Source: a virus
Strand: one strand, 5' to 3'
Length of the DNA stretch: 42,946 bases
IMG/VR virus record: IMGVR_UViG_3300032315_001764
Span: 1 to 42,946 of that record
Under the pieces are notes generated by a model. It had not been told where the DNA came from. It was given only the letters and a program-made list of their open reading frames with translations, and searched no databases. This document shows positions 271-41,572 of the stretch, one piece after another; the stretch's first letter is position 1, and the number at the start of each line of letters is the position of its first letter. A program made the position numbers and the translations under genes.

Positions 271-295
271 CCCTACTTTTCAGTAGGGTTTTTTT
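271..295. terminator. Bidirectional rho-independent terminator
   Basis: A perfect 7-bp stem (CCCTACT / AGTAGGG) with loop TTTC is followed by a T-run on the plus strand and flanked by an A-run that serves the minus strand. It lies between convergent genes: the homing endonuclease end and the PPK2-led operon. Confidence 0.85.
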
Positions 296-1052
296 ATTTC
301 TGTTTAATTTCTAAATACCAGTTTGGAAATCCTTGATTCCACCAAGGTGATATATTAACATAGAATTTTAATCCATGTTTTTCTTCCTTTTCTTGTTCTT
401 GTGAAAGTCCTTCACCCCACCCATCTGAGCATTGTCCTTCTAAATAATCTTTGATTGAGTCAATCTCATCACCTGTTAAATCTCTATTAGTTTCAATTTC
501 ACCAGTAATAATATTTTCATCTTTAAGTCCGGTTATTTCCATCCTTAAAATCTTAAAATTTTGATTAAATTCTCTATAAGGATAAAATTGTTTCAAATCT
601 TCTTCATTAAAAGTAATTTGGATAGCATCAAATTCATCTTTACCAATTTCATTTTCTTCAAAATCTAAATCATACATTCTGAAAAACTTAGACATATCAT
701 TGTTATAAACTTGTTCAATCCATCTTTCAAAATATTCATCGAAGTTAGCTTTAACTTCTGATTTACTTAACTCTGGAGCTTGGTATTCTTCTTCCTCATC
801 ATCATAATCTCCAGCTGTTCCGTATCCTAAATCTAATTCATTAGCAATATCTTGACAAATATCATTACCTCTTTCATATTTTAAGAAGTCGATTAAATTA
901 TCATCTACTAAACTTCCCTCATCAATATTGAATACTTTTTTAACTGGAAACTCAAATGTGTAAATCGATTCGTTTTTTCTATCCTTTGGATTTTTTAACC
1001 AATCTGTGAATGTTCTTTTTATTTCTGCTTCAAATATTTTTAAGTGTTTCAT
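294..1052 (-). CDS. Unknown 252-aa protein with N-terminal FE-type leader
   Basis: Not recognised as a known family. It begins MKHLKIFEAE, one of the clearest examples of the short leader shared by many proteins in this window. The body is acidic, with a run of D/E around residues 80-90 (GDYDDEEEE), and it has no predicted membrane segment. Its ATG overlaps the TGA of the upstream gene (ATGA), so it is translationally coupled as the third gene of the PPK2 operon. The stop sits at the edge of the terminator. It may be packaged in the virion if the leader is a capsid-targeting signal; this is inference. Confidence 0.8.
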   Translation of the reverse strand: MKHLKIFEAEIKRTFTDWLKNPKDRKNESIYTFEFPVKKVFNIDEGSLVDDNLIDFLKYERGNDICQDIANELDLGYGTAGDYDDEEEEYQAPELSKSEVKANFDEYFERWIEQVYNNDMSKFFRMYDLDFEENEIGKDEFDAIQITFNEEDLKQFYPYREFNQNFKILRMEITGLKDENIITGEIETNRDLTGDEIDSIKDYLEGQCSDGWGEGLSQEQEKEEKHGLKFYVNISPWWNQGFPNWYLEIKQK

Positions 1053-1282
1053 AAAGTGATAATAAATGATTTAATTTTTTCTAGTTGAACTACATCAAAA
1101 TCGTTTTCTTCTAATAGTGTAAGTATATCAATTTTAATAGTTTCAATATCATTGATTGTTTCAGTTGAATATTCATCAGGTTTGTAAGTATTATTTCTTA
1201 CAACTCTTGAATCTGTATTAACTTGGTCAGAGCCTAAGTGTGTTCCTCCAAAAAAGTTTTCATATTTTTTAAGATTCCTCAT
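1049..1282 (-). CDS. Small unknown protein (77 aa) with leader, coupled to PPK2
   Basis: The frame can be extended upstream to a TTG, but the ATG at 1282 is preferred. It overlaps the stop codon of the upstream PPK2 gene (TAATG), and it produces a leader, MRNLKKYENFFGG, of the kind seen on its operon neighbours. The C-terminal half (ETIKIDILTLLEENDFD...) looks helical. Its end overlaps the next gene by ATGA. No family was recognised. The tight coupling suggests it works in stoichiometry with the PPK2 and the 252-aa protein. Confidence 0.75.
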   Translation of the reverse strand: MRNLKKYENFFGGTHLGSDQVNTDSRVVRNNTYKPDEYSTETINDIETIKIDILTLLEENDFDVVQLEKIKSFIITL

Positions 1283-2433
1283 TAATCTAAAATATTTATT
1301 ACTTCTGGGTACCAATTACATTTTGTAGTGTCTTTGCCCTCATAATCTACTTTATCTAAAACATATCTGATAGCATTCAATCTGCCCACTTTTTTATCAT
1401 TTGAGTTAACAATAATCCAAGGAGATATTCTCGATGCTGTTTCAACAAACATTTTGTTTTTAAACTCACCAATTAATTCGAATTGGTCAACTACTTTTGC
1501 ATCATTAGGTGAGAATTTCCAATATTTAAGTGGAGATTCTTGTCTTAATTTGAATCTAAGTAATTGTTTTTCTTTTGTGATAGAAAACCAGAATTTAATT
1601 AATATTACTCCTTCACGAATCATCTTTTCTTCCCAGTCAAGAACATTTCCCATGAAGTCATTATATTGGTCCTCTGAGCAGTAACCCATAGCTGGTTCAA
1701 CTACAGCTCTATTATACCAAGAGCGATCAAAGAAAACTATCTCACCTGGGTTTGGTAAGTATTTTTCATATCTACCAAACCAATTATTTTTTTCCTCTTC
1801 AGTTGGAACTCCCAAAGCAACAACTCTGAAGTGTTTAGGATTCATATATTCAACAAATCTTTTGATTGTCGATCCTTTACCAGCGGCATCACGTCCTTCA
1901 AAAACTATAGCTACTTTCTTTTTATTTTTAACTACCCATTCTTGTAACTTCATTAACTCAACTTGAAGATCATATTTTTCACCTTCATATTTCTTTCTTG
2001 GTAGAATTGACCATTCACCATCATCAAAATGTTCATCATCTGATAGAGTTTCTTTTTGTCTTCTAATTCGAGCGGCTAATGTGTTTATGTAAGCTACAAA
2101 TTCTTCTTTAATTCTACGTCTTGTGTTTCTTTTTTCCAGAACTATAATTTGAGATATTTTTCTGAAAAGAGCTTCAACATTTAGTTCTCTAACTGCATCT
2201 TCTCCGAATTCTTTATTCATGATACCTAATAAAAAATTAACATCGATATTTTTAAATCCATCATTGAATTTAATTTTATTTGTTGTTGTATCATATTCGA
2301 TATGTTTAAGAATACCAAGCTTTAGTTCTTCTAAAGTTATAACTAAATCATTTTTGAGCTCATCTAAATCACTATCAGATAGCTTATTGAAGTCATATTT
2401 TTCATTAAAGTTTTTAAATAGTTGAAATCTCAT
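1282..2433 (-). CDS. ppk2: Polyphosphate kinase 2 (PPK2) family protein
   Basis: PPK2 enzymes move phosphate between polyphosphate and nucleotides. The catalytic domain (about residues 145-375) shows Walker A GRDAAGKGS at 180-188, the second motif DRSWYNR at 236-242 and the lid region RFKLRQESPLKYWKFSP, all intact. Residues 1-145 are an extra N-terminal region that starts with MRFQLFKNFNE, resembling the shared leader. At 383 aa it is longer than a minimal PPK2 (about 230-300 aa). It is first in a coupled three-gene operon in which every protein carries the leader. A TAATATATAA element lies about five bases before its ATG. Class (ADP- or AMP-preferring) cannot be settled by eye. Family assignment is firm; role in infection is inference (nucleotide supply or control of host polyphosphate). 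Confidence 0.93.
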   Translation of the reverse strand: MRFQLFKNFNEKYDFNKLSDSDLDELKNDLVITLEELKLGILKHIEYDTTTNKIKFNDGFKNIDVNFLLGIMNKEFGEDAVRELNVEALFRKISQIIVLEKRNTRRRIKEEFVAYINTLAARIRRQKETLSDDEHFDDGEWSILPRKKYEGEKYDLQVELMKLQEWVVKNKKKVAIVFEGRDAAGKGSTIKRFVEYMNPKHFRVVALGVPTEEEKNNWFGRYEKYLPNPGEIVFFDRSWYNRAVVEPAMGYCSEDQYNDFMGNVLDWEEKMIREGVILIKFWFSITKEKQLLRFKLRQESPLKYWKFSPNDAKVVDQFELIGEFKNKMFVETASRISPWIIVNSNDKKVGRLNAIRYVLDKVDYEGKDTTKCNWYPEVINILD

Positions 2434-2437
2434 ATAC

Positions 2438-2449: not shown

Positions 2450-2581
2450 TTATCTATCGAATTTTATTATTATTCTGCGGCAAAGATTGTCCTCTTCGCG
2501 ATAATTTATCTTATTCATCATATTATCTGTAATATCTTTGGCTGTAAAAAAGTATTGACTTTCGTTAAATCTTAGTATCAT
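2450..2581 (-). CDS. Small unknown protein (43 aa), translationally coupled
   Basis: A short frame starting MILRFNESQYFFTAKD and ending KFDR. Its ATG overlaps the TGA of the upstream 301-aa gene (ATGA), the same coupling used by real gene pairs elsewhere here. It fills almost all of the otherwise empty gap before the PPK2 promoter. The N-terminus (LRFNES) is faintly leader-like. No family was recognised; the case for a real gene rests on the coupling and the gap. Confidence 0.5.
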   Translation of the reverse strand: MILRFNESQYFFTAKDITDNMMNKINYREEDNLCRRIIIKFDR

Positions 2582-9450: not shown

Positions 9451-10140
9451 ATGACAAGATTAGAATTTCTAGAGAAAGCAAGGAATATTCACGGTTATAA
9501 GTATAAATATCCAAATTTGGATGATAAAATAACTTTAAAAGATAAAATTGAAATCTTTTTAGAAGAGGATTCTTTTACTCAAACCGTTTCTAAACATTTG
9601 ATGGGTAAATGTCCTGAAAAACAAATCAATAAAAGAAGTAGTAAAGATTTTATAGAAGAAGGTAAAGATGTTTGGGGTGAAAAATATGATTATTCATTGG
9701 TTGAATATAAAGGTTCTCTTAGTGAGGTCAAGATTATATTAGATGGTTTTATCTATTCGCAAAGAGCATCATCTCATTTACAAGGTATATCACCAGAATT
9801 TAGAAAATTGAAGGAACATTCAGATTTAGAAAATTCAGATATTATTGGTGGAAAAGAAATAGAGGAGTTTTTATTGAAGTATAAAATACCACATCAAAAA
9901 AATAAAAGATTTGGATGTTTAAAGTTTCAATTTTATTTAACTGAAATCAGAACTGTTATTGAATATCAGAGTCAATTACATTACAATTTACAAAATGTGA
10001 TTGACTGGAATAATAAAAAAAGAGATTACTGTGAAGAAAATTTTATTAATCTTATTATAATTAAGTATGATCAAGAGAATATAATTTGGGAGTTGTTATG
10101 GGATAATTTAAAACTATTCATAAATGATAAGAAAACATAA
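9451..10140 (+). CDS. Homing-endonuclease-like protein with altered active site
   Basis: Two tandem modules (about residues 4-60 and 65-120) share the pattern FLEKARNIHGYKYKYPN / FIEEGKDVWGEKYDYSLVEY, the DNA-binding repeat (DUF723-like) of a common phage endonuclease family. The C-terminal part (about 135-225) matches the PD-(D/E)xK or Vsr-like nuclease region, where the usual core reads roughly FDFYL...IEYDGxQHY. Here it reads FQFYLTEIRTVIEYQSQLHY: both Asp positions are Gln, while Glu and His remain. The cysteines that usually close each repeat are also missing. It may be a catalytically dead or repurposed nuclease. Its last 27 bases overlap the convergent 148-aa gene. Confidence 0.75.
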   Translation: MTRLEFLEKARNIHGYKYKYPNLDDKITLKDKIEIFLEEDSFTQTVSKHLMGKCPEKQINKRSSKDFIEEGKDVWGEKYDYSLVEYKGSLSEVKIILDGFIYSQRASSHLQGISPEFRKLKEHSDLENSDIIGGKEIEEFLLKYKIPHQKNKRFGCLKFQFYLTEIRTVIEYQSQLHYNLQNVIDWNNKKRDYCEENFINLIIIKYDQENIIWELLWDNLKLFINDKKT

Positions 10141-10560
10141 TCCAAAAAATAGTGGAGATAGTTTTTCCGGCACATCAATCAATTCAAATTTAGAAGTAAT
10201 TTGTGAAAGTTGAGATTTTAGATTATGTATAGATTCATCGAATAAATTCTGAGAATTTTCATCTAAATAAATTTCAAGTCTAGATCCATCACCTATACCT
10301 TCATTATTGAAATCAACTTTTATACATTTTTTGTACTCACCATCAAATTTCTTTGATTCTTCTGGGTATTTTCTTTTTAATTTACTTAGAAGTCTATCTG
10401 ACATGAAGTGATATCCCGGTATAAATTTTCCTCCCTCAAAACTTATTATCATTCCATAGTCAGTGATGTAATCTTCAAAACATTCTTTTACACTTTCTTC
10501 TATTTCATCGATTATCTTCCCATCATCAAATGATTCATTGAATCTCTTAATATGTTTCAT
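10114..10560 (-). CDS. Unknown 148-aa protein with leader
   Basis: Begins MKHIKRFNESFDDG, close to the leader consensus. The rest is acidic (DEIEESVKECFEDYITDYG, NEGIGDGSRLEIYLDEN) with a hydrophobic C-terminal end (LSPLFFGLCFLIIYE) that may be a short membrane-interacting segment. Not recognised. Its stop region overlaps the convergent endonuclease-like gene by 27 bases, suggesting that gene was inserted tightly against it. Confidence 0.75.
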   Translation of the reverse strand: MKHIKRFNESFDDGKIIDEIEESVKECFEDYITDYGMIISFEGGKFIPGYHFMSDRLLSKLKRKYPEESKKFDGEYKKCIKVDFNNEGIGDGSRLEIYLDENSQNLFDESIHNLKSQLSQITSKFELIDVPEKLSPLFFGLCFLIIYE

Positions 10561-10610: not shown

Positions 10611-12701
10611 ATGTCTAAAAACAAAGGAACATTAGTATCATCAACTATAAGACCAATTTCAGCATCATCAAGTTATCCAACAGCTCATGCTAATGAATTG
10701 TTAGGTGGTTTCCAAACTGTGAATGATATTATCTCAAGAGATAACATTGTCACTCAGAGAAGGGCTTTTGGTATGTTAGTTTATGTTGTAGTAACTGATG
10801 AATTTTATCAGTTAAAAACCGTAAATTCTCTAAATCTTTCGGATAATTTAAACTGGTCTTTGGTTCCTTTTGGTGCCTCTTCTAACAATACTGACTGGGT
10901 CAATTCTGTTATAAGTAGAAGTAATACACCACCAGGTTCTCCTAACATTAATGATAGATATTTAGTAATAATTGGTTCTGGTGCTTGGGGAGGATATGAT
11001 AATTTAATAGTAGAGTGGAATGGAACTATTTGGGTAGCTACAATTCCAAGTGAAGGAATGGCTGTCAAAGTAGATGATGAAACTAATTCAATTTATTTTT
11101 ATGAAGGAAGTTATTTTCCACTTGGTTCTTGGAATCGTAAAGATTTTGTCTTAAATCCTTTAGAGATTTTATATAATATTCCTAGTGTAGATACGATAAA
11201 TGTTGGAACTAACTCAGAGTATTTAATTTTTGGTAATTTAAATGTAGATGGTCAGATAAACACCTGGGGAAAAGTTGTAATTTTAAATGGTACAATTTCT
11301 GGTACTGGATCTGTTGGTATTTATGGAAGTGGTTCTGTTGAACAATATAATCTTTTAACTGAGATATATGGTGGAACTGGTATTTCTATTGCTACTCAAT
11401 CACCTTATACTAGAATAGTAAGTGTTGATTTGATTGCTGGTACAAGTATATCAATTAGCAATTCAGGTAATTCTGTTGTTATTTCTGCTCAACATCAATC
11501 TCAAGATTATCCAAAACATGTTATTGTACCAGGTGAAACAATTACTATTCCTGATTATCAAGAATATTGGATATATGGTGATTTAACAGTTTATGGAACA
11601 TTGGATATTGGAACTTATGGTAAAGTAGTTGTGGCAAATGGTGCATTTATGGCTGCTACAGGTTCATTGGTTAATAATATGGGTAATGTTGAAGTTTATG
11701 ATTTACTAACTGTTGCTGATGATAATTTGAAGATTGATATAACTGAGATTAGATATGGTGGTGCTAATAGAATTCTCTTTGAAAGTGATTTGAAATTTAT
11801 TCCACTTATGGGAACCTATGCGAGAGTAATAACTGAATCAAGTAAATTTGTTTATTCGACTTCAAGTTCTTACACTACTTCAACGACCCCTTTGGGTTTA
11901 GAGAATTACTTAGGAGTTGGTACATCTGATCCGTTAAAAAAGTTTCATGTTAAAAACTCAGGTATCTTAATTGATGGTATTTATCCTGAACAATCACTTG
12001 GATTGGGTAATCCAAACTATGCTAGATTTGTTATCAATACAGATACAGGTAATACTCAGGATTTCCTTAATTTTAGAAATAATTTAGGCACAGTTTTAAA
12101 TGTCGCAGGTGGTATAGATGGTGGTATTAGATATCCAAGTATTTCAATTGGAACGAGTTCATCAACAGGAGTTGTGAGTATTTACGATTATTCGGGTAAT
12201 AACCTACTTTCATTATCAAGATTAGGATCATTTAGTCAAACTAACTTAACTAATGGATTTCAATTAGTTAATGGTATGGTAGATTTTGGTCTGGCAACAA
12301 TCGAATTATCTGGTTCTTATTGGGACAATGGTTCTGGTACTTATAGACTCACAGGAATCGCTGGTGCATTACCCGGTGGAACTTATGGTGTGGGTTCATC
12401 AATCTATGATTCAAATACGGATTTATGGAATCAAATGATAGTTCAAAGTGATTATGTTTATGCTTCCGTTTCTGATTTGACAAATTCAATTTATAATAGT
12501 ATGATGATATATACACATAGTGTTGTTTTATCTTACATTGGTTTATCATCCTATGATATTACTTTAGATGATATTGGTGCTAGATTATCAAGTATTCCAC
12601 AATATGCTAATGATTCAGCAGCTGTATCTGGTGGATTACTTTCTGGATATTTATATGCAACTAGTTCGGGTGGTGTTACAAGACTTTGTATAGTTCCTTA
12701 A
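10611..12701 (+). CDS. Tail-fibre/appendage-like structural protein
   Basis: Residues 1-95 (STIRPISASSSYPTAHANEL, then RRAFGMLVYVVVTD) follow the N-terminal module seen on many phage fibre proteins. Residues about 105-175 (GSPNINDRYLVIIGSGAWGG ... IVEWNGTIWVATIPSEGM) match a DUF2793-like domain. An internal duplication follows: residues about 204-250 (YLIFGNLNVDGQINTWGKVV) and 319-366 (YWIYGDLTVYGTLDIGTYGK) are copies of one beta-rich unit ending in YNLLT/YDLLT. The rest is Ser/Thr/Gly-rich beta structure with little charge, typical of trimeric fibres. No S74 domain is present at its own C-terminus. Its stop overlaps the convergent 103-aa gene by four bases. Confidence 0.8.
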   Translation: MSKNKGTLVSSTIRPISASSSYPTAHANELLGGFQTVNDIISRDNIVTQRRAFGMLVYVVVTDEFYQLKTVNSLNLSDNLNWSLVPFGASSNNTDWVNSVISRSNTPPGSPNINDRYLVIIGSGAWGGYDNLIVEWNGTIWVATIPSEGMAVKVDDETNSIYFYEGSYFPLGSWNRKDFVLNPLEILYNIPSVDTINVGTNSEYLIFGNLNVDGQINTWGKVVILNGTISGTGSVGIYGSGSVEQYNLLTEIYGGTGISIATQSPYTRIVSVDLIAGTSISISNSGNSVVISAQHQSQDYPKHVIVPGETITIPDYQEYWIYGDLTVYGTLDIGTYGKVVVANGAFMAATGSLVNNMGNVEVYDLLTVADDNLKIDITEIRYGGANRILFESDLKFIPLMGTYARVITESSKFVYSTSSSYTTSTTPLGLENYLGVGTSDPLKKFHVKNSGILIDGIYPEQSLGLGNPNYARFVINTDTGNTQDFLNFRNNLGTVLNVAGGIDGGIRYPSISIGTSSSTGVVSIYDYSGNNLLSLSRLGSFSQTNLTNGFQLVNGMVDFGLATIELSGSYWDNGSGTYRLTGIAGALPGGTYGVGSSIYDSNTDLWNQMIVQSDYVYASVSDLTNSIYNSMMIYTHSVVLSYIGLSSYDITLDDIGARLSSIPQYANDSAAVSGGLLSGYLYATSSGGVTRLCIVP

Positions 12702-13009
12702 TTTGAACTAAGATTTAATAAAACAGTTTCTAGGTTTTCTTGTGTGAATCCGTGTAGTGGTTTTCCGCCATTTTTCAAATAATCTTGATACAATTGTTGA
12801 TAATCGTTGTAAGTATATAGATTTGAAGTTATTTCGGAATAAAGAACATCAGTATCATCTTGAGAAATTGTGCTATTTCTTAATTTAATAGAACCATAAT
12901 TTGGTCCCATTGGTCCAACTGGTGCGGTTGTTCCCCCACTAGCACCACCAACTGTTTGGTCAGCAATTGGAATATTTCTTTCATTAAATTGTTTCCAAGA
13001 TTTAATCAT
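12698..13009 (-). CDS. Small unknown protein (103 aa) with leader
   Basis: Begins MIKSWKQFNERNIP, fitting the leader consensus with FNE at residues 8-10. A Gly/Pro-rich linker follows (TVGGASGGTTAPVGPMGPNYG), then a helical C-terminal half with Tyr-rich NLYTYNDYQQLYQDYL. Leader plus flexible linker plus small domain is the layout expected of a processed, packaged protein. Its start overlaps the upstream gene by eight bases. Confidence 0.75.
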   Translation of the reverse strand: MIKSWKQFNERNIPIADQTVGGASGGTTAPVGPMGPNYGSIKLRNSTISQDDTDVLYSEITSNLYTYNDYQQLYQDYLKNGGKPLHGFTQENLETVLLNLSSN

Positions 13010-13478
13010 TTTTTATTGGTAATTTTTCAAAAAACTCATCTTCCATCTCTAAAGAGAATTCATCTTTATTTGTATTGTAGATTATATTGTAGAGAATATT
13101 ATCCATTAATTTAATTTTCTCACCATTTTTTAGAGTCATTATTGAAGTTTCATCATCAAATTTGTTATAAATCTGTAAGATTTGTATACCGATTTTGCCA
13201 TCTTTATCAACTAAATTACAGATAACTTTTTTACCTCTTTCTAACAATTGAGATATTTTGGTAAAAGTTGATTCTTTTGATAACATTCTAAGATCCATCA
13301 TATCTTCTTCTGATGTTTCATCATAGTGGTCTAAGAAATCTTGTTCAGATTTAGATAGTTTAATTTTATTAGATATTTTATCTAATATTTGATTCAAACG
13401 AATCTCTTTGAGAGATTCATCTAATTTGAAATAAGATATGAATTTATTGAATGTCATGACGTTATTTCTATTTTTCAT
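13002..13478 (-). CDS. Unknown 158-aa acidic protein, leader-like N-terminus
   Basis: Two starts are possible. The ATG at 13478 lies six bases after a TAATATATA element. The ATG at 13457 gives MTFNKFISYFKLDES, which fits the leader pattern better. The body is a charged helical protein (DKISNKIKLSKSEQDFLDHY) followed by a strand-rich region (VICNLVDKDGKIGIQILQIY). Not recognised. It is coupled to the 103-aa leader protein by an eight-base overlap. Confidence 0.72.
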   Translation of the reverse strand: MKNRNNVMTFNKFISYFKLDESLKEIRLNQILDKISNKIKLSKSEQDFLDHYDETSEEDMMDLRMLSKESTFTKISQLLERGKKVICNLVDKDGKIGIQILQIYNKFDDETSIMTLKNGEKIKLMDNILYNIIYNTNKDEFSLEMEDEFFEKLPIKND

Positions 13479-18716: not shown

Positions 18717-18851
18717 ATGAAAGAGAAAATTAAAAAAATTAAGTATTTGAGATGTAAAAGAAATCCCTTAATTTTTAGAAATTACACTGTTATTTGTATC
18801 AATAATAAATTAATCTCTTATTCAGATTATTTGTTGAAAGTTGAAGAATAA
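18717..18851 (+). CDS. Small basic protein (44 aa), probable gene
   Basis: A frame beginning MKEKIKKIKYLRCKRNPLIF and ending LLKVEE exactly fills the gap between the terminator and the convergent DUF3008-like gene, whose stop is one base away. The product is highly basic. Its start lies close after the terminator T-run and no clear TAATATATA precedes it, so expression is uncertain. It may depend on terminator read-through. Confidence 0.45.
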   Translation: MKEKIKKIKYLRCKRNPLIFRNYTVICINNKLISYSDYLLKVEE

Positions 18852-18852: not shown

Positions 18853-19257
18853 TTATTCTATATCTCCTCTTTTTCTAAGAGTGTGAAGTATTTGAATTAT
18901 AGTTTCTTCACTAATATCTGATTCGATTGAAAGTTGTTTGATGTCAGTCAAACCTTCCTCATAAAGTTCCTTAACAAAATCCATATCACTTAGTGTGAAG
19001 TCTTCAAATTTATAATTTTCCTTAATAAAACTTAAAAAATTTAAAATTCTTTCTTCGACTTTAGTTACTTTTTCTGGTAATCCTTTGTGTTTTGTTTTAG
19101 CAAAATCTTTAAGAGATTTAGTTCCTTTCTTCTTACCTTTTTTCATAAAAGATTTTGCTACATCTTTAATTACTTTTGGCGCATCTTTTAATTCACCCTT
19201 TGCATAAGCATAAGCGGCTCCTAATAATCTTTGTTGTGCTTTTGATTTAGCTGGCAT
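18853..19257 (-). CDS. DUF3008-like basic protein with C-terminal HTH-like extension
   Basis: Residues 1-65 (MPAKSKAQQRLLGAAYAYAK ... LKDFAKTKHKGLPEKV) match the DUF3008 family of small basic proteins found in phages and bacteria. Residues 66-134 form an added helical domain (SDMDFVKELYEEGLTDIKQL then SDISEETIIQILHTLRKRGD) with a helix-turn-helix rhythm. DNA binding is plausible but unproven. The usual family length is about 60-70 aa, so this one is a fusion or extension. A TAAATATATAG element lies 19 bases upstream. Confidence 0.78.
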   Translation of the reverse strand: MPAKSKAQQRLLGAAYAYAKGELKDAPKVIKDVAKSFMKKGKKKGTKSLKDFAKTKHKGLPEKVTKVEERILNFLSFIKENYKFEDFTLSDMDFVKELYEEGLTDIKQLSIESDISEETIIQILHTLRKRGDIE

Positions 19258-19270: not shown

Positions 19271-19711
19271 TTAATCTATATATTTAATATTAATATTTAA
19301 AAGTTCTTTTCCGTATTTGATTGATAGTTCTTTTCCTTTTTCTGTAAGAGTTATTAACTTGCCTTTTTGGTATTCAGATAATTTCCAAATACCATCACCT
19401 TCATATTTTTCTATGAAAGCTAATCCGGATTTACTTAAATCTTTAGTATAGTATCTACTTCTTTTGTTTATCAAAATTGCTAGTAATTTTAGTTTTAAAG
19501 CTATTTTATATTGAGAACCTCTATACTCTTTTTTAACGGACATTACTTCGTGATAAGGTATTTCATCATCTGAGATACTGAATATTACACGACCAACTAG
19601 TACATCACTTTGATATGCTTCGATACAATAGGTATCATAATATTCTTTTGGTCCTGCATAGATTATTTCTTCTTTAGATTCTTTTATAAACTCTTTAAAT
19701 TTGTTAATCAT
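19271..19711 (-). CDS. GNAT-acetyltransferase-like protein with leader
   Basis: Begins MINKFKEFIKESKEE, which is especially close to the T4 capsid-targeting pattern (F-I-x-E). The body resembles a GNAT fold: strands VLVGRVIFSISDDE and VMSVKKEYRGSQYKIALKL (the V-x-x-x-YRG acetyl-CoA loop region) and later LSKSGLAFIEKY. The classic R/Q-x-x-G-x-G/A loop is degenerate here (YRGSQYK), so activity is uncertain. It lies between the isochorismatase-like and DUF3008-like genes on one strand with short gaps. Confidence 0.65.
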   Translation of the reverse strand: MINKFKEFIKESKEEIIYAGPKEYYDTYCIEAYQSDVLVGRVIFSISDDEIPYHEVMSVKKEYRGSQYKIALKLKLLAILINKRSRYYTKDLSKSGLAFIEKYEGDGIWKLSEYQKGKLITLTEKGKELSIKYGKELLNINIKYID

Positions 19712-19720: not shown

Positions 19721-20338
19721 TTATTTTATAGGACAATGTGATCCTGACCAAATATATTTATAATTTCGTTTGATTTTAACACCCAATTTTTCTGCTAAGG
19801 TGACAACATCTTCTAAACATTCTGAATCAGAACCACCCACTATTTCTACGGTTTTACTTTTTAATGATTGTAAAATATCATAAAGCTTTTTTGGAGAGTG
19901 AAACCAAACGTGATTATTACCTATGTAAACAATAACGGTTCCTTCTTTAGTTGGAAAGATATCTCCTTTTTTAAGTTGTTTTTTATCTTCTAATTCAGAT
20001 ATTTTTTGATATGTTTCTTTATCAAGGATTTTCTTGTAGAAGTCTGCATCAACATCATAGTTATATCTTTTTTCTATTCTTTCTTTTACGTTAGGAAAAT
20101 TGTAGAATTCATCTGAAATAGGAATATCTGGATTTTCATCATATAGATAATCTTTATCTACATTTTTTCCCTCGTGATGATTATCGAATATTTGATAAAC
20201 ATTTTTAAAGTTATTACAATATTTAGTTAATTGGTTTATATACATTTCTGTAAAGAACTTTGAGAAGCTCCTCTGAACATCCACGATGATTAAGTTTTCA
20301 ATTGTGTTGTGATTTTCAAATGTTTTAATCCATTTCAT
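19721..20338 (-). CDS. Isochorismatase-like cysteine hydrolase with leader
   Basis: Begins with the leader MKWIKTFENHN, then LIIVDVQRSFSKFF, the first family block with the catalytic Asp. The block VEIVGGSDSECLEDVVTLAEKLGVKI near residue 170 holds the nucleophilic Cys in the usual position followed by a helix. The family includes nicotinamidases, isochorismatases and ureidoacrylate hydrolases. A nicotinamidase-type role in NAD metabolism would be attractive for a phage, but the substrate cannot be read from sequence. It ends CPIK. A TAATATATA element lies four bases from its ATG. Confidence 0.72.
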   Translation of the reverse strand: MKWIKTFENHNTIENLIIVDVQRSFSKFFTEMYINQLTKYCNNFKNVYQIFDNHHEGKNVDKDYLYDENPDIPISDEFYNFPNVKERIEKRYNYDVDADFYKKILDKETYQKISELEDKKQLKKGDIFPTKEGTVIVYIGNNHVWFHSPKKLYDILQSLKSKTVEIVGGSDSECLEDVVTLAEKLGVKIKRNYKYIWSGSHCPIK

Positions 20339-20421: not shown

Positions 20422-21048
20422 ATGGAATATAAAAAGTGCACTCAGTGCGGAATTGAAAAAGAGATATCGAGGTTTTCAAGAAGAAAAAATTATTACAGAA
20501 GCGGTTGTAAAGATTGTGCAAAGAAATATGATAGAGAATATCAAAAAACTGATAAAAGAAAATCATATCTCGAGAAATTGAAGACCGATAAGAAAAGAAT
20601 AGAATACAAGAGAAATCATAGAAAAGGATATGAAAGTAGTGAAACGAGGAAAGTGTATGAAAACTCAGAAAAGTATAAGGACTATAAACGGACATATAAT
20701 AGAAACTATATTAAAAAGAGAAAACAAATCGACACTCTTTTTAAGATATCAATTTCAATCAGAAATAGGATACGTGAAAGTCTAAGCCAATTTGGTTTTA
20801 CTAAGTGTTCAAAAACAAGAGAAATTCTAGGATGTGAAATTAATGAATTTAAAATTCACTTGGAGTCATTGTTTCTCGATGGAATGTCTTGGGAAAACTA
20901 TGGAAAAGACATGAGTGGTTGGCAGTTGGACCATATTGTTCCAGTTTCAAGTGCCAAAAATTGTGACGACTTGATTAGACTTAATCACTATACAAATTTT
21001 CAGCCACTGTGGGCTTTGGATAATCTAAAAAAATCAAATAAGATTTAA
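20422..21048 (+). CDS. HNH homing endonuclease
   Basis: An N-terminal zinc finger (CTQCGIEKE ... CKDCAKKY) is followed by a very basic helical linker (about residues 40-110) and a C-terminal HNH domain: WQLDHIVPVSS gives the first His, LNHYTNFQPLW the Asn/His block, and DNLKKSNK the last part. This is a standard free-standing phage HNH nuclease. It is on the plus strand inside a minus-strand group, its stop overlaps the convergent gene by four bases, and it has its own AT motif, all consistent with insertion as a mobile gene. Confidence 0.9.
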   Translation: MEYKKCTQCGIEKEISRFSRRKNYYRSGCKDCAKKYDREYQKTDKRKSYLEKLKTDKKRIEYKRNHRKGYESSETRKVYENSEKYKDYKRTYNRNYIKKRKQIDTLFKISISIRNRIRESLSQFGFTKCSKTREILGCEINEFKIHLESLFLDGMSWENYGKDMSGWQLDHIVPVSSAKNCDDLIRLNHYTNFQPLWALDNLKKSNKI

Positions 21049-21629
21049 AGTGGAAGTTCTTCACCAGTTTCTTCTTCTCCTTGACCCTCTTCTTTTTCTT
21101 CGCCTTCTTCACCAACCTCTTCATATTCTCCTTGACTTTGCGGTTCAGCTTCTGTTTGAACCTGAACTTGACTTTGTCCTTGTGCCTGTGCTTGCGGCTG
21201 TGCCTGTCCTTGTGGTTCAGTTTCTGTTTGAACTTGTACCTGTGGTTGAGCTTGTCCTTGTGTTTGTCCTTGTGTTTGTCCTTGTGTTTGTGCTTGTCCT
21301 TGTGTTTGAGGTTCGGTTTGCATCTGACCTTCTGGTGTTGTTTGAGCATCACCAGTAAGAGCTCCAGCTGGAACCTGATCAACGTTTGTGAAGTTTAAAG
21401 TTACATATTTCACGATTTCTTCTGCTATATCTATATCACCAAAGAATTGTCTTAGATTTTTTCCAGTATTATCTTTTACTTTTTTAACATAGGCGTTAAT
21501 AAGAGATTGTGGAATATCAATCAAAGTTCTTACTTTATAGATATCGTTCACTTGAAGAACGGATTCTTTAATGATTTCATCTTTTCTCTTGTTATTACGA
21601 TAAGATTCAAATTTTCTAATGTGTTTCAT
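21045..21629 (-). CDS. Leader protein with Gln-rich repeats and acidic tail
   Basis: Begins MKHIRKFESYRNN. Residues 1-100 are an ordered, helical domain (VRTLIDIPQSLINAYVKKVK, DIDIAEEIVKYVTLNF). Residues about 105-165 are low-complexity Gln/Thr/Pro (QTQGQTQGQ, QVQVQTETEPQ), and residues 166-194 are almost all Glu/Gly. The layout suggests a processed protein with a disordered acidic tail, as in phage scaffold or internal proteins; this is inference. The Gln region comes from a tandem DNA repeat listed separately. Confidence 0.75.
   Translation of the reverse strand: MKHIRKFESYRNNKRKDEIIKESVLQVNDIYKVRTLIDIPQSLINAYVKKVKDNTGKNLRQFFGDIDIAEEIVKYVTLNFTNVDQVPAGALTGDAQTTPEGQMQTEPQTQGQAQTQGQTQGQTQGQAQPQVQVQTETEPQGQAQPQAQAQGQSQVQVQTEAEPQSQGEYEEVGEEGEEKEEGQGEEETGEELPL
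21130..21325. repeat. Coding tandem repeats (12 bp and 72 bp)
   Basis: A 12-bp unit (CTTGTGTTTGTC) is repeated about four times around 21251-21312. A longer unit beginning GGTTCAG occurs at 21142 and again at 21214, 72 bp apart (24 codons) with a few substitutions. The periods are multiples of three, so the frame is kept. The repeat also makes false open frames on the other strand. Confidence 0.8.
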
Positions 21630-23247: not shown

Positions 23248-23529
23248 ATGGCAACAATTACAAAAAAGAAAACTAAAACTGAAGTAGATAGAATTATATC
23301 TCAACCTTGGAAGTTAGTATTGGCGAACGATGATTTTAATTCCTTTGATTGGGTAATCACTTGTTTAATTAAGATTTGTGGACACGAGTATGAACAGGCC
23401 AATCAATGTGCTCATATCGTTCATTTCAAAGGTGAATGTGATGTTAAGTATGGTGATTTTGAAAAGCTTTCTCTTATGAAAGAGAAGCTTCAGAATGCTG
23501 GACTTTGTGTAACTTTAGAGGAGAATTAA
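23248..23529 (+). CDS. clpS: ClpS-like adaptor of the Clp protease
   Basis: ClpS hands N-degron substrates to ClpA/ClpC-type unfoldases. The core LVLANDDFNSFDWVITCLIK carries the NDD substrate-pocket signature, AHIVHFKGEC carries the pocket His, and the end AGLCVTLEE matches the family's last strand. At 93 aa it has the usual length with a short basic N-terminal extension (TITKKKTKTEVD). It is translated right after the HAD gene and overlaps the terminase stop by four bases in the convergent direction. The phage may use it to redirect host proteolysis; this is inference. Confidence 0.9.
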   Translation: MATITKKKTKTEVDRIISQPWKLVLANDDFNSFDWVITCLIKICGHEYEQANQCAHIVHFKGECDVKYGDFEKLSLMKEKLQNAGLCVTLEEN

Positions 23530-26713: not shown

Positions 26714-26729
26714 ATAAACTTTTTTTATT

Positions 26730-26740
26730 TTATATATTAA
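26730..26740 (-). promoter_or_regulatory. TTAATATATAA promoter-like element for the endonuclease
   Basis: Minus-strand motif overlapping the stop of the N-terminal terminase fragment and 16 bases before the endonuclease ATG. It suggests separate expression of the nuclease. Confidence 0.4.
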
Positions 26741-30193: not shown

Positions 30194-33100
30194 ATGAGTA
30201 AAATTTTAACCAGAAGTCAATATTTAGATACATTGAGAAATCAAGCTTATACCAGATATACCGGTATAAAAACTAATGAGGCATTTTCAAATGACGTGAA
30301 TTGGGGGGATTCTTGGGTTGGTCGAATGATAAATTCTATTATCAGGAAAGGTAAAGTTGCTGTTAATTTAAGAAGAATAGATTCTTTAGGTAAGAGATTG
30401 GAATCTCTTTTTGATGAATTGGTTGAATCTGGTAAAATAGTAGCGGATAATTCAACTAAATCTTTCATAACAACCAGTTGTCTTTTAGGTCAGTTGGAAG
30501 ATATGGTTAAAGGAAAAAAGGGAGATGAGGGAACAGAGGAAGATATACCAAATATCATTTCACATATTACATTTTTGATTGGTCAGGTTCAGGGTTATAA
30601 CCTTAGAGATAAGGATGAGTTGATTGGTGTTTTAGACGAGTTTATGAAATATTTAGAAGAACTTCTAAAAAAACAAGGAAAGAGTGAGGATGATGAGACT
30701 GGTGATGAAGATGAAGTTGGTGATAAAGAGTCTAAAGAGAGTGGTGATCCAAATCAAATATTTTTTCAAGAATCTAAAAAGTTTTTGCAATCAGTTGTTG
30801 ATTTACATAATATGATTAAAAATAATGTTGTTAGATTTTCAGAAGAAGAATATGGTAAGAAGTTCAATGTAGGTGTTCAATTTGATTTAGCGAAATTCAA
30901 TTCACTTAAAACTACATATGAAAAGGCTAAGCCAGAGAATAAGTTGGCAATTTTGAGACAGCTTGTCCCTATGATAGAGGCTGGTTTAGATTCTTATAAA
31001 GTGAAAAAGGATAAAATAAATACTACTTTATTCGATTCTTATTTTAAGAAATACGCTGGAATTTTAAGTGGTATGGAAAGAGATTCTCTTGATAAAAATA
31101 AGAAAAAGGAAACACCTCTTGATGATTTAAAAAATTTACCAAAGGTTGAGAAAACACCAACGCCAACTAAAAAGTCAGTCGATGAGATTGCTAAAGAATT
31201 AGAAAAAAAATGGATAGCTTCACAAATATCTCAAGGTAAAAACATAAAACCTGGTCAGGGGACTCGAGAAAGATTTGAAAAAGAAGCCAAAAGAATTGCA
31301 AATGAATCAGTTATTTTTGAGGAAGTTGAACAAAATTTAGAAAAAGGAGAAAATCATGCAAGAAACGCTTGGAAAAAAGTTGTGGATGCTTATAATAAAT
31401 CTGGTGTTACTAAATATATTCCGCAAATTGAAGAACTCTTGTCAACTGGCATCAAGGATGGTAAGGAAAAGACAATTCAGGCCAAGAAAAATATTATTTT
31501 AGTTTGTAAGCAAATTTTAGCTAATAAATCAACAGTTGGTAAACCGATTGCATTCGATGATTTAATTAAGGAAGGATTGTATGATAATGATATGCCTAAA
31601 GCTATATCTTTATTCGGTAAGGTATTACTTTCATTTAATGAAGATTTGGGATTAGCTGGTGCTTATGGATCTAGAGGAAGGGATGCTAGTGGAAAACCGC
31701 TTGGTACAAATCCATTAAAAGTTTTTGTAGAATCTTTCAATGCTCTTGAAAAAACACTTTCAAAACTTGGAGGTTCAAAAAAATCAGAATACAAATCAGG
31801 TGATATTGTAAAGTATAAGCTTTCAAAAGGCGGAGAAGGAGAGAAGGAAATTATCAAAATTGAAGGAGATAGATTTTTCTTCAAGAGTAAGGATGGTAAA
31901 GAATTATCTGCACCTCTTAAAAGTATAACCGGTAAAGTAGAAAAGAAACAAGAATCTGTTATCACAAAATATGATAGTTTTAGAAAATTATTTGAAAAAA
32001 CTGAAGGTGTTGATTATGATGAAGTTTCTAATAAGTTTGATGAGTTATTCACGGATGAAATAATTGAGAAATTTCAAATTGAAGAATCGACTATTGAGGA
32101 AATTAAAAAATCTGGTAAAGAGGGAGACACCATATTAATTACTGGTGCTGATCCTATTATGGAAATCGTGAGATTGTTCCAAAGAGCTTGGAGAATGCAC
32201 ACTCCGGGTATAATTCCTTCTGGAAGAACTGGTGGTAAAGTTTCTACTTCAGTTTTTATGGAATATGAAAACTTGGGTGATAGGGATGGCACTCCTGATT
32301 CGCCGGGTTCTGGTCCTTATAGGAATATTGAGCTTTATGAGAAGTGGAATGAGGCTGTGACAAACATATTGAGTAATACTAAATATAGAACGACTATATT
32401 TAGTGATGATGCTAAGTTTGCTTGGGAGTATGATAAAAAAACCGAAAGATCTAAAATGCTAATTGATAAAAGTAATTTTAATAGAGGTACTGAGGGTAAA
32501 GTTTCTGAAGTCTCAAAGCCACTTGGTAAAATTTTGTTAAGATTCATCAATAATTTATTAACGGATACCGAGATGTATAAGAAAAACGGTGCACTGCCAA
32601 AATTTTTACAAGAATATTTTGGACTTGGTGATGATCAGGTAAAGGAATTAGGCAGTCCTAACTTTGGAGGACCTTTTTCGAAAGATAGTGATAAAAATTC
32701 AGGAACAGCTGACGATATGCCTACTCAAACAGTCTGTAAATTTGTAGATAGAGAAAAAATATCAGATTTTATAACCAAATCTGATATTTTTGGATTTATT
32801 TCTGAGAAAGTAAGAAACAATGGTGTTAACGATATTAAAAATATGTTAATAAAGGTTACAACTGATGATAATCCAGTTTATCTTTTATTTTTAGGTATAA
32901 GTGGTACTGATAAAACTAAGTTATATTTCTTAATGTTAGATAGTATGTATTTTGATCTGACTAACTTTAGGATGGGTAGTACAACAGATAGAACTACCCG
33001 ACCTAAAAAGGTCGATTTAATTGAAATTGAAACAACCGAGAAATTAATTACGGAAGGTGAATTCAAATTTACTAAGTGGTCACTCTTAACTGAAAACAGT

Positions 33101-33250
33101 AATCCGGAAGATTCAAGAATTAAACCAAAGAAAATTACAATTTTAGTTGATAAAAATGAGGATGTTTTCTTGGATTTGAAAATGGAAAGATTAAAAAGAG
33201 AATTCAAAATAGTAAATAGAATAAAAAAACAAAAGAAGAATTTATTATGA
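30194..33250 (+). CDS. Very large unknown protein (1018 aa)
   Basis: No domain was recognised. It is highly charged and mostly helical. Residues about 155-185 are an acidic linker (KSEDDETGDEDEVGDKESKE). Residues about 545-580 (SGDIVKYKLSKGGEGEKEII, SKDGKELSAPLKSI) look like a small beta barrel of KOW/SH3 type. The C-terminal third is folded (NPVYLLFLGISGTDKTKLYF). A long acidic-basic helical protein just before tail genes could be structural, scaffold or head-packaged. The N-terminus (MSKILTRSQYLDTLRNQ) is not a clear leader. Its TGA overlaps the ATG of the next gene (ATGA). Confidence 0.75.
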   Translation: MSKILTRSQYLDTLRNQAYTRYTGIKTNEAFSNDVNWGDSWVGRMINSIIRKGKVAVNLRRIDSLGKRLESLFDELVESGKIVADNSTKSFITTSCLLGQLEDMVKGKKGDEGTEEDIPNIISHITFLIGQVQGYNLRDKDELIGVLDEFMKYLEELLKKQGKSEDDETGDEDEVGDKESKESGDPNQIFFQESKKFLQSVVDLHNMIKNNVVRFSEEEYGKKFNVGVQFDLAKFNSLKTTYEKAKPENKLAILRQLVPMIEAGLDSYKVKKDKINTTLFDSYFKKYAGILSGMERDSLDKNKKKETPLDDLKNLPKVEKTPTPTKKSVDEIAKELEKKWIASQISQGKNIKPGQGTRERFEKEAKRIANESVIFEEVEQNLEKGENHARNAWKKVVDAYNKSGVTKYIPQIEELLSTGIKDGKEKTIQAKKNIILVCKQILANKSTVGKPIAFDDLIKEGLYDNDMPKAISLFGKVLLSFNEDLGLAGAYGSRGRDASGKPLGTNPLKVFVESFNALEKTLSKLGGSKKSEYKSGDIVKYKLSKGGEGEKEIIKIEGDRFFFKSKDGKELSAPLKSITGKVEKKQESVITKYDSFRKLFEKTEGVDYDEVSNKFDELFTDEIIEKFQIEESTIEEIKKSGKEGDTILITGADPIMEIVRLFQRAWRMHTPGIIPSGRTGGKVSTSVFMEYENLGDRDGTPDSPGSGPYRNIELYEKWNEAVTNILSNTKYRTTIFSDDAKFAWEYDKKTERSKMLIDKSNFNRGTEGKVSEVSKPLGKILLRFINNLLTDTEMYKKNGALPKFLQEYFGLGDDQVKELGSPNFGGPFSKDSDKNSGTADDMPTQTVCKFVDREKISDFITKSDIFGFISEKVRNNGVNDIKNMLIKVTTDDNPVYLLFLGISGTDKTKLYFLMLDSMYFDLTNFRMGSTTDRTTRPKKVDLIEIETTEKLITEGEFKFTKWSLLTENSNPEDSRIKPKKITILVDKNEDVFLDLKMERLKREFKIVNRIKKQKKNLL

Positions 33251-33897
33251 ACAGATTATTAAATTTTGAGGAATACTCAACTAATGAGTTATTTGATTTT
33301 TTGAGTAAAAAATATGAATTCGATTCTCGTGCTAAAGAAGTTTTCAAAAAACTACTTGATAATATAGATAATTTGGAAGTTCAAGAGTTTGCTGATTATA
33401 GAAGAGAGGTTTCTTTGAGTAAAAATCCAAAAGAAGAGAGTAAAGAAGTTAAGAAAAAAGAAGATATTGAAGAAGTTGAAGTAAAAGAGGCTAGAACTAT
33501 GAGAGTACCGAGAGTTCAAAAAGTGACTCAAACTTCTCAGACTGTAACAGGAGAAACACCATCATTCAAGCAAAAGTACAAACAGGGTGGTGATATTAAA
33601 GTAACAGTAATGAAGAATTACTCAAAACATAGAACTAGTTCTAAAATATGGGGTTCGGGAAAAGAAAGTACTTTTTCTTTAGCTATTAATAATCAACATT
33701 TTATAAGTGATGAGAGAGGAAAAGAAGGAAAGCTTTTAGTTAATCCTAAGATTGCTGTGATGTATTGGAATTTTCTTTCAGATATTGGTAATGTTCAAGC
33801 AAAGTATAAAAAAAGAAATATAAGTGAATCAGAATATGATTCAGAAATCGATAGGATCAAGAGTAAATATTCGGTAGAATTATCAAAGTTTAAATAA
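33247..33897 (+). CDS. Unknown 216-aa protein with leader, coupled to the 1018-aa gene
   Basis: Begins MNRLLNFEEYSTNEL, a leader variant with FEE. A Lys/Glu-rich linker (about 65-85: EESKEVKKKEDIEEVEVKEA) separates a helical N-terminal part from a basic C-terminal domain (GGDIKVTVMKNYSKHRTSSK, NPKIAVMYWNFLSDIG). No family was recognised. ATGA coupling makes co-production with the 1018-aa protein likely. A bidirectional hairpin terminates the pair. Confidence 0.75.
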   Translation: MNRLLNFEEYSTNELFDFLSKKYEFDSRAKEVFKKLLDNIDNLEVQEFADYRREVSLSKNPKEESKEVKKKEDIEEVEVKEARTMRVPRVQKVTQTSQTVTGETPSFKQKYKQGGDIKVTVMKNYSKHRTSSKIWGSGKESTFSLAINNQHFISDERGKEGKLLVNPKIAVMYWNFLSDIGNVQAKYKKRNISESEYDSEIDRIKSKYSVELSKFK

Positions 33898-33958: not shown

Positions 33959-34585
33959 ATGAAATTCTTAAAAGATTGGAAGCTTTTTCTCGAAGCAGAC
34001 GAATTTGAGCCTGAAGATAATACTCAACAGACTGAAATTACACAACAAGGTGATATTTTGAGTAAAGAGAATGATAAAGCTAATGGTGAAGCTCTGAAAC
34101 AGATTCAAACAGATTTGAGTTATTATAAATCTAAATCTCAGGTTATGATGGATATTTTCAAAGACTCTTCAAAGTTAGAGTCAGATCTGAATTCTCAAAT
34201 CCAACAGAAAGTGTATAATAATCAGAAAGATGCTAAAAAAAGAAATAAGTATTTAGTTGATCTTGAGGGATTATATAGAATGAAGAGAAGAGTAGATAGG
34301 ACTAATCTTGATATCATTGAAAATACGAATAGAAAGGAAGGAGTTCAACAACAAATGAATGACTTAAAAGATAGGTTTAATCAAAGTGAGGATACGACTC
34401 AGAAAAATAAATTATCTGAACAGATTGAAAAGAGTAGAAATTATCTAAAACAATTGAGTGATACAGTTATTTCTAAAAAGAAGGAGTTATCACAATTAGA
34501 TAAAAACTACCAAGAAAAGAGAAAGAAATTTGAGATGATGATGAAGACAGAAGAAAATAGAATTAAAGATTTAAGTCGAAAATAA
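33959..34585 (+). CDS. Coiled-coil protein with leader, scaffold- or internal-protein-like
   Basis: Begins MKFLKDWKLFLEADEFEPED, a leader with F-L-E followed by A, close to the T4 cleavage style. Residues about 40-208 are one long coiled coil with no proline or aromatic core (LKDRFNQSEDTTQKNKLSEQ, KKKELSQLDKNYQEKRKKFE). A leader-bearing, fully helical, charged protein of 208 aa is what one expects of a scaffold or internal head protein, but no family match can be claimed. It lies 85 bases upstream of the sheath gene. Confidence 0.75.
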   Translation: MKFLKDWKLFLEADEFEPEDNTQQTEITQQGDILSKENDKANGEALKQIQTDLSYYKSKSQVMMDIFKDSSKLESDLNSQIQQKVYNNQKDAKKRNKYLVDLEGLYRMKRRVDRTNLDIIENTNRKEGVQQQMNDLKDRFNQSEDTTQKNKLSEQIEKSRNYLKQLSDTVISKKKELSQLDKNYQEKRKKFEMMMKTEENRIKDLSRK

Positions 34586-40179: not shown

Positions 40180-40202
40180 AATAATTAGTTATTTTTTATA
40201 GG

Positions 40203-40978: not shown

Positions 40979-40994
40979 TAAAAGTAAAAATCAA

Positions 40995-41040
40995 AAAAAA
41001 CCGATAAGATTTTTTCTTATCGGTTTTTTTAATATATAAT
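40995..41040 (+). terminator. Terminator followed at once by a promoter motif
   Basis: Stem CCGATAAGA / TCTTATCGG with a TTTTT loop and A/T flanks (40995-41029) ends the tube transcript. Its T-run merges into TTAATATATAAT (41029-41040), the likely promoter of the next unit. Confidence 0.88.
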
Positions 41041-41197
41041 AATAAAATTTAACATCGGCAGCTGCGAAGGCGCAACGGTTGTAAATAAAAACTAACCAAT
41101 CTATTTCGGAGATAAAAGTGAAAAAACACAACGTGTAAATAAGACTAAAAGAATTAGACTATTAAAATTGAAATACACTTAAAAAATAAATTAAATT
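41041..41197 (+). ncRNA. Long 5' leader with GC-rich patch; candidate structured RNA
   Basis: About 150 bases lie between the promoter motif and the ATG at 41198 with no open frame starting at ATG. Bases 41054-41080 (CATCGGCAGCTGCGAAGGCG and following) are about two-thirds G+C in a very AT-rich genome. TGCG-AAGG-CGCA makes a small hairpin. A near-repeat occurs twice: CAACGGTTGTAAATAA at 41073 and CAACGTGTAAATAA at 41129. It could be a regulatory leader, a small RNA or a binding site. Nothing identifies a known riboswitch class. Confidence 0.35.
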
Positions 41198-41572
41198 ATG
41201 AAATATTTAAAACTATTTGAAAATTTTGAACAACCAGAAGGAACTGGAAAAGATACCGCTTGGGAGGTGGAAGTTGATGGTGAGACTGTAAAAGTAACAT
41301 TGGCTGATGTTATGAATTATCTTGATGATTTGGTTGAGATAGAACCTGAGGAATTAAAACATCTTTTAATTGATGTTGAAAGAGATCCAAAGAGAGTTGG
41401 TGCTGCTGATTTATCATATCCTATTATTTTAGTTTCGAGTGGTGAAGAATATACTTCTATAATAGATGGACAACACAGAGTTGTTAAAGCTCTTAGAGAT
41501 GGTGTTCCAGTTAAAGCTAGAATACTAGATTTAGATAATGCTCCTGAAAAGTTCAAGGCTGTTTTTGGATAA
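41198..41572 (+). CDS. ParB-like domain protein with leader
   Basis: Begins MKYLKLFENFEQPEG, a clear leader. Residues about 65-124 match a ParB/sulfiredoxin-like fold: LSYPIILVSSGEEYTSIIDG then QHRVVKALRDGVPVKARIL, with the D-G-Q-H-R signature of the nucleotide-binding motif. The family includes ParB CTPases and DndB/Srx-like or small phage ParB proteins. No DNA-binding HTH is present, so it is not a classical partition protein. It is read from the long leader region and lies upstream of gp47. Confidence 0.78.
   Translation: MKYLKLFENFEQPEGTGKDTAWEVEVDGETVKVTLADVMNYLDDLVEIEPEELKHLLIDVERDPKRVGAADLSYPIILVSSGEEYTSIIDGQHRVVKALRDGVPVKARILDLDNAPEKFKAVFG

Follow-up and report, generated by a model that had tools for sequence, protein, structure and literature searches.

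A short leader on many unrelated Mahaphage proteins probably corresponds to the capsid-targeting sequence of T4 internal proteins

The 42,946-base virus fragment IMGVR_UViG_3300032315_001764 (the window) is of the Mahaphage type, and twelve of its predicted proteins begin with a similar leader of about ten residues. We conclude that this leader is very probably a capsid-targeting sequence of the kind carried by the internal proteins of phage T4, in a version borne by far more proteins in the Mahaphage clade. Roughly one protein in eight in this type of phage and its relatives starts with the tag. A T4-like capsid-targeting leader had been proposed earlier from the letters of the window (the original prediction), and it is strongly supported here by independent sequence evidence: a blind test on T4, a match to the repeat of the prohead scaffold, motifs at the expected protease and capsid sites, and conservation among orthologs; the packaging and injection that were proposed with it would follow by analogy with T4.

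All twelve N-termini named in the original prediction translate as given there, with 5' ends at 1052, 1282, 2433, 10560, 13009, 13457, 19711, 20338 and 21629 on the minus strand and at 33247, 33959 and 41198 on the plus strand. The bodies behind them had been described as unrelated, and the twelve indeed fall into twelve clusters, as do 96 bodies from the relative LR745206 into 88. Gene duplication as the source of the leader was rejected on the basis of this clustering. One exception is an xxELKDxGF-like domain common to five leader proteins of LR745206.

Judged from identities of the tail sheath rather than from a tree, the core structural genes of the window appear to group with genomes of 634-735 kb, which together with the Lak phages form the Mahaphage clade, with predicted hosts among the Bacteroidetes (Al-Shayeb 2020, PMC7162821). 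Sheaths on other IMG/VR contigs reach up to 73% identity with that of the window (34671-38933). Over the full length, identity is 54% with LR745206 (634 kb), 53% with LR756502 (642 kb) and 44% with LR756501 (735 kb); for Prevotella Lak phages, Tenacibaculum phage PTm1 and MaF61 it is about 30%. The records compared were LR745206 (W01), parts of LR756501 (W03), LR756500 (W04), PTm1 (W05), the 400-kb Lak-A1 (W06), PAU (W08), the IMG/VR relatives G001 (436 kb), G002 (476 kb) and G009 to G012, and a 50-kb segment of T4. Open reading frames (ORFs) were called mechanically from the first ATG in the window and in the comparison records, so some starts are miscalled and the leaders are probably undercounted.

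A regular expression derived from the twelve leaders matched 11 of 50 N-termini in the window and none of 223 internal Met positions. A position weight matrix (PWM) trained on these twelve leaders only was tested on the first ATGs of ORFs, with Met codons inside those proteins as the control. It recovered 96 of 921 N-termini in W01, compared to 13 of 3185 internal positions (odds ratio 28, p=1e-49), and 58 of 622 in G002, compared to 11 of 2549 (p=2e-31). The corresponding counts were 27/555 and 9/2245 in the W03 segment, 15/68 and 5/265 in G012, 14/75 and 4/308 in G010, 19/615 and 9/1793 in W04, and 45/456 and 10/1788 in G001, a held-out record added after the others (p=5e-23). The search of related phages suggested with the original prediction found the leader profile enriched in W01 and eight other related megaphage records. 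There was no significant PWM excess in PTm1 (1/301), PAU (4/290) or Lak-A1 (3/411).

The leaders fall into two classes, M-K-x-[L/I/Y]-K-x-F-[N/E] with FNES or FENF endings (class I) and M-I-K-K-Y-x-x-F-I-x-E (class II). With both classes counted, leaders number approximately 117 among the 921 ORFs of W01 and 78 among the 622 of G002, including a few chance matches. An alignment of 107 leader proteins gave the consensus MKxLKxFxE, with essentially nothing conserved beyond it. The leader genes of W01 are clustered (25 adjacent pairs, compared to 9.9 expected genome-wide), and at W01:440351-458342 about a dozen of them follow one another almost without interruption.

Within families of orthologs, the key positions of the leader are conserved. 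Among seven aligned orthologs of the 19721..20338 protein, F7 and E8 are invariant, in contrast to residues 2-6 and 9-14. For the 21045..21629 protein, 48 distinct orthologs all have I or L at position 4 and F or Y at position 7. The Glu of a second site, IIKE↓S (the arrow marks the expected cut), near residue 22, is also invariant in all 48, and is kept even where the preceding residues become VN, TN or KN. Most orthologs of the polyphosphate kinase 2 (PPK2) protein carry a class I or class II leader (MRIFNYKIFNES, MLKRFQNFILED, MKLKPFNTFLNEE, MPVYNFHKFINEE), and they switch between leader classes (MRLQLFNQFNEK, MLKRFQNFILED, MKLKPFNTFLNEE, MPVYNFHKFINEE).

T4 targeting sequences, prohead protease and scaffold

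In T4 IPIII, which begins MKTYQEFIAEA, residues 4 and 7 are required for targeting and residues 8 and 10 for processing, and the gp21 protease cleaves after L/I-x-E (PMC9026906, a review through which we cite Mullaney and Black 1996 for the capsid-targeting sequence). The megaphage leaders have a hydrophobic residue and a Phe at the same positions 4 and 7. The key Phe is at residue 7 in 142 of 244 leaders, with a hydrophobic residue at 4, and otherwise at residues 6-10. A motif of the L/I-x-E type closes the leader, although the site is often F-N-E and is looser than that of T4.

We scanned every position of the proteins in the T4 segment (15,120 positions) with a class II profile (phi-x-x-F-I-x-E-S) built from 105 sequences, T4 excluded. 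The two best matches were at residue 4 of IPIII and residue 4 of IPII (both YQEFIAEA). The third was at residue 59 of gp23, where FGSFLTE↓A is the end of the known propeptide, which is 65 residues long (PMC9026906, PMC5694885). The class I profile of the window misses T4 (2.3 bits for IPIII and 5.3 bits for IPI), and the equation with T4 therefore depends on class II and on the frame that both classes share.

The original prediction called for a gp21-like protease gene nearby. It is not in the window, where a search with PF03420 (gp21) gave no match because the gene lies outside (in G009 it is approximately 28 kb beyond the tail sheath), but most of the large relatives do carry it. PF03420 matched in 13 of 20 records, with five above the curated cut-off, and fragments without a match do not show absence. 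An S77 match had E=8e-6 and 26 bits, just below the cut-off of 27, and the Gp23 capsid protein match had E=3e-26; a gp21-type protease, a scaffold and a gp23-type capsid protein thus occur in the same phage group. The Mahaphage protease is the N-terminal part of a protein of 700-810 residues whose middle consists of about 11 tandem repeats of 14 residues (AYSEYIAENLDKNI), so that protease and scaffold are fused.

When the class II profile was applied to internal positions, this protease-scaffold came first among all proteins in each of the five tested Mahaphages that encode it. There were seven internal matches in W01 (the next best of 921 proteins had two), seven in G002, five in W03, three in G009 and six in the held-out G001 (next best, one). 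The chance that one 14-residue repeat would match the profile is approximately 0.002. Because the profile picks out the protein with these repeats, the leader looks like an imitation or copy of a scaffold repeat (Y-x-E-Y-I-A-E-N). One of the next-best proteins of W01 is a small protein built from the same repeats. Small proteins with scaffold-type repeats (YSEYIAEN) are encoded apart from the protease-scaffold gene at G012:33971, G011:41968, W01:460435, W03:619760 and 18717-18851 of the window, and may represent another route into the core.

The likely cleavage sites also resemble each other. By eye, the propeptide of the capsid protein ends SINE↓N or QINE↓N where that of T4 ends FLTE↓A, and this expected INE↓N site resembles the leader ends FNE↓S, INE↓E and FINE↓E. 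A phi-N-E motif is present within residues 2-30 of 39% of leader proteins and 8.7% of others, a difference partly built into the profile, and phi-x-E is present in 90% and 56%. In a test of FE-type leaders restricted to the region downstream, phi-N-E was found in 13%, compared to 3% at internal positions and 6.7% in non-leader proteins. Trimming after F-x-E, as originally predicted, fits the FNE, FINE and FIKE types; in the FE types the likely protease site often lies further in, as with IIKE↓S of the 21045-21629 protein. In the leader proteins G009:69817 and W01:93266, an arm like that of the major capsid protein (MCP), GMGAV...GSGD, follows straight after the Glu of the leader. Separately, small capsid-like proteins (W01:291407-291880, G002:165780-166214, W01:554784-555284 and G002:421096-421608) resemble the MCP propeptide or the GMGAV...GSGD arm and lack the remaining capsid protein.

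By analogy with T4, we infer that the leader proteins are bound, packaged, cut and ejected, and that they function in a new host. The leader would be a short N-terminal peptide, probably helical, that resembles one repeat of the prohead scaffold and lets unrelated proteins bind the scaffold core during head assembly. The prohead protease, fused to the scaffold, would cut after the Glu of phi-x-E (FNE↓S, FIKE↓S, INE↓E), and the cut cargo, free inside the head, would be ejected with the DNA. We lean modestly towards an extended proposal, in which the scaffold repeat can be transferred between proteins as an address tag: in each genome, over 100 different proteins would enter the core as scaffold mimics, be released by the protease and be injected together, RNA repair, nucleotide enzymes and counter-defence among them. 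The phage would thus begin infection already equipped with a large proteome.

Cargo, upstream box and alternative explanations

The bodies behind the leaders include PPK2, a T4-type RNA ligase, a CCA/PolyA polymerase, RlaP, a DHH-type protein, a fusion of a 2H-phosphoesterase (weak Acb1 match) with a DEDDh exonuclease, Sa_NUDIX and other NUDIX proteins, GrpE, an M15 peptidase, a methyltransferase and a MazE-like match. PADLOC, run on the leader set, reported a NUDIX type associated with cyclic-oligonucleotide-based anti-phage signalling (CBASS) or defence-associated reverse transcriptases (DRT), a DEDDh exonuclease and two weak matches. Several of these cargos would fit immediate delivery against RNA-cleaving or cyclic-nucleotide defences. 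The RNA ligase, CCA/PolyA polymerase, RlaP, the 2H-exonuclease fusion, Sa_NUDIX and the MazE-like match would suit a role in counter-defence early in infection. There is a direct precedent in T4, whose Ip1-3 are injected GmrSD inhibitors that share only the leader (PMC12373910).

Many leader genes are preceded by a box, AATATATA, found upstream of 44% of leader ORFs and 16% of others in W01 (p=3e-11), 47% and 18% in G002, and 44% and 23% in G001. It also stands before the portal and protease genes, and similar boxes precede the capsid protein and sheath genes. Because the box is also present at UvsX, it is late only presumptively. In W01 there are two preferred distances from the ATG, 0-9 and 20-29 nucleotides; the short spacing would yield nearly leaderless mRNAs. 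Examples in the window are upstream of the genes starting at 10560 (-), 20338 (-) and 33959 (+).

Several results weigh against capsid targeting. The fourth match in the T4 scan was the portal, a false positive since the T4 portal is not processed (PMC5694885), and single class II matches are therefore unreliable. The scaffold repeats are copies of one another, so that several repeat matches count as one resemblance and not seven. Of the 244 leaders, 32 have no protease motif inside 28 residues, and many leaders are of the FE type, without the motif at the usual place. The box was not enriched at leader genes in the window, G009, G011 or G012, where numbers are small. A D-Ala-D-Ala carboxypeptidase is an odd cargo for a head interior. 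T4 internal proteins are basic, whereas the leader bodies average -6.3 net charge per 100 residues, compared to -1.6 for other proteins; they thus differ from basic, DNA-associated bodies, which are typical of T4 internal proteins but not defining.

The leaders might direct proteins to the head core as assembly or scaffold parts, with only a minority of cargos being injected or active in a new host. This would be a sub-case of head targeting and is compatible with the targeting step proposed above. T4 IPIII also has a role in head morphogenesis (PMC9026906), and several leader proteins are small and acidic with no fold assigned, some with the MCP-arm motif. However, a role in assembly is implausible for the many cargos that are complete enzymes, and we regard this explanation as possible but rather unlikely.

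It seems quite improbable that the leader is instead a docking or localisation signal for a replication compartment, a membrane or a host factor, and that the proteins act only in the infected cell. Enzymes such as PPK2, RNA repair proteins and NUDIX proteins could work there, and the acidic bodies are unlike those of T4 internal proteins, but such a signal would leave unexplained the match to the T4 capsid-targeting sequences and the gp23 cleavage site, the recurrence of the motif inside the prohead scaffold, and the terminal Glu motif expected for the protease.

We give very little credence to the idea that the shared N-terminus is a by-product of shuffling at the DNA level, in which a cassette of promoter and start region was copied and the peptide has no role. 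Leader genes do often share the upstream box, and they are clustered. However, codon usage inside the leaders is that of the genome background, the amino-acid pattern persists even where intervening residues differ, the spacing is variable, and orthologs exchange leader classes; codon usage and these exchanges led us to reject a DNA cassette. Chance is a negligible explanation: K, N, E, I and F are common in genomes of 28-31% G+C, and M-K-x-L-K-x-F-E might be merely typical of AT-rich start regions, but internal-Met and shuffled controls from the same genomes gave only about 0.4-2% at the PWM cut-off, and neither PTm1, with 30% G+C, nor PAU is enriched.

Leader proteins and neighbouring genes of the window

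Nine leader genes are on the minus strand. The 252-residue protein at 294..1052 (MKHLKIFEAE; no assigned family) has an ortholog, G012:10301, that retains MKHLKIFEAE, and the 77-residue protein at 1049..1282 (MRNLKKYENFF, ATG at 1282) has an ortholog, G012:11059, with MKKLKKYENFF. The protein at 1282..2433 joins the leader MRFQLFKNFNE to PPK2 (residues 146-368, Pfam E=3.2e-76). By eye, there may be a weak extra leader ORF of 43 residues, MILRFNES, at 2450..2581 (-). The 148-residue protein at 10114..10560 (MKHIKRFNES) has orthologs starting MKHLKRFNES (G012) and MKHLKPFNES (G011). In the family of the 103-residue protein at 12698..13009 (MIKSWKQFNER), the leader is retained with variable spacing (W01, MIKKFYQFINE; G002, MKIKSFKQFNEE; G010, MIKRFKEFNES).

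The 151-residue protein at 13002..13457 has an unusual variant leader, MTFNKFISYF (MTFNKFISYFKLDES), and its start is an in-frame ATG within a longer ORF, 13002-13478. Its orthologs have FKLNES, FSLKES, YILGES and YLLNES, and the phi-x-E-S site is present in five of six (KLNES twice, SLKES, ILGES and LLNES) and lost in G009. The 146-residue protein at 19271..19711 carries the most T4-like leader, MINKFKEFIKES, the top class II site of the window (18.7 bits; G012 ortholog, MINKFKQFIKES). The proteins at 19721..20338 (MKWIKTFENH, 205 residues) and 21045..21629 (MKHIRKFESY, 194 residues) have a conserved core and a Q-rich tail, respectively, and in the latter the IIKE↓S site lies ahead of the body.

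On the plus strand, the 216-residue protein at 33247..33897 (MNRLLNFEEY) has orthologs starting MKHLVKIEEF (G010), MRIDRFSDFKVNE (G012) and MKTLNFDQYSKNE (G011). The coiled-coil-like protein of 208 residues at 33959..34585 (MKFLKDWKLFLEADE), with a late-type box just upstream, has an F(L/I)E leader ending in five orthologs (KLFLEA, ELFLEA, SLFLEQ, KIFLEA and KLFIEE). The protein at 41198..41572 has 124 residues and starts MKYLKLFENF (MKYLKLFENFEQPE).

Among the body names originally proposed, PPK2 is borne out, but the isochorismatase-like, GNAT-like and ParB-like assignments have no Pfam match. PDB sequence searches gave no useful match for the isochorismatase-like (19721..20338) and ParB-like (41198..41572) bodies. 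We dropped the isochorismatase fold, as the AlphaFold model has a predicted local distance difference test (pLDDT) score of 60, about 40 in the leader region, and a structure search gave no PDB match under E=0.1.

In a DUF3008 protein (18853..19257, -; Pfam E=1e-6), FLSFIKE↓N at residue 74 resembles a leader; this internal site, the second-best class II site of the window (14.8 bits), is followed by a helix-turn-helix-like tail. Leader-like sites follow the DUF3008 domain in proteins of the window and its relatives; in G002:45894, RFDSFNES is followed by an unrelated body. The short ORF at 18717..18851 (+) is akin to the small scaffold-repeat proteins (YSQYISESIDKSISYTDYLSQ) of G011 and G012, with 51% identity over 39 residues to G012:33971, whose repeats match the protease-scaffold; the repeats of the window copy are degraded. 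A 1018-residue protein (30194..33250, +) has a predicted processed propeptide, KTNE↓AFSND (E29), that is not of the leader type but has the same N-E site, and six orthologs have KSNE↓A, YTKINE↓A, VINE↓S, SINE↓E and RVNE↓E types at the same place.

A full-length glutamyl-tRNA synthetase, with catalytic and anticodon domains, is encoded at 4917-6383 (-), and is one of the genes used to assign Bacteroidetes hosts (PMC7162821). The large terminase gene (23526-27249, -) looks split by an intein within the Walker A motif. ORF 26737-27249 reads ASRQTGK followed by CSNFNTI, ORF 23526-25748 has an intein-like end, NHRYYTNGILSHN, followed by TISSS, and an endonuclease-like ORF (25724-26713) lies between them. 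The gene is similarly split in G009 and is one ORF of 710 residues in LR745206.

Comparison with known systems

T4-type capsid targeting is already known; what is new here is an indication that the tag is a copy of the repeat in the phage scaffold. We found no report in the literature of such leaders in Mahaphage or Lak, and the 'N-terminal motif' of RaK2 is a tail-spike domain. If our explanation is correct, an N-terminal tag readable from sequence would predict virion cargo among hundreds of uncharacterised proteins of the largest phages, among it enzymes for counter-defence and RNA repair that are loaded in advance, and the T4 capsid-targeting sequence would itself imitate a scaffold repeat. 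It would also point to a natural means of protein delivery that is very permissive and whose tag and protease are both defined. A scaffold is thereby proposed for these giant heads, a component that has been missing for other giant phages (PMC5694885).

Like T4 IPI, IPII, IPIII and Alt, the Mahaphage proteins have a leader of approximately ten residues with a hydrophobic residue at 4, Phe at 7 and a Glu cleavage motif, in front of unrelated bodies and in phages with gp21/gp23-type head genes. T4 has three such proteins and Alt, with at least 10 reported across its relatives, whereas leader ORFs number more than 100 per Mahaphage genome (approximately 117 in W01; 78 in G002). Mahaphage leaders are mainly class I (FNES/FENF) beside the T4-like class II, the bodies are acidic and many are recognisable enzymes, and the leader resembles a tandem scaffold repeat. 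As with T4 gp21 and gp22, there is an S77-family protease domain and a scaffold studded with cleavage-type sites, but in Mahaphages the two are one protein with a 14-residue tandem repeat.

In phage P1, N-terminal residues direct the large injected protein DarB into the head, as we predict here; the Dar proteins share no consensus (PMC9024508), whereas one Mahaphage consensus serves many proteins. The phiKZ-like giant phage SPN3US has many inner-head proteins, cleavage after Glu and propeptides thought to target the prohead, all of which we predict for Mahaphages. In contrast to the short Mahaphage leader, SPN3US propeptides are mostly at least 100 residues long and share no common short leader, and no gp22-like scaffold has been confirmed in that phage (PMC5694885).

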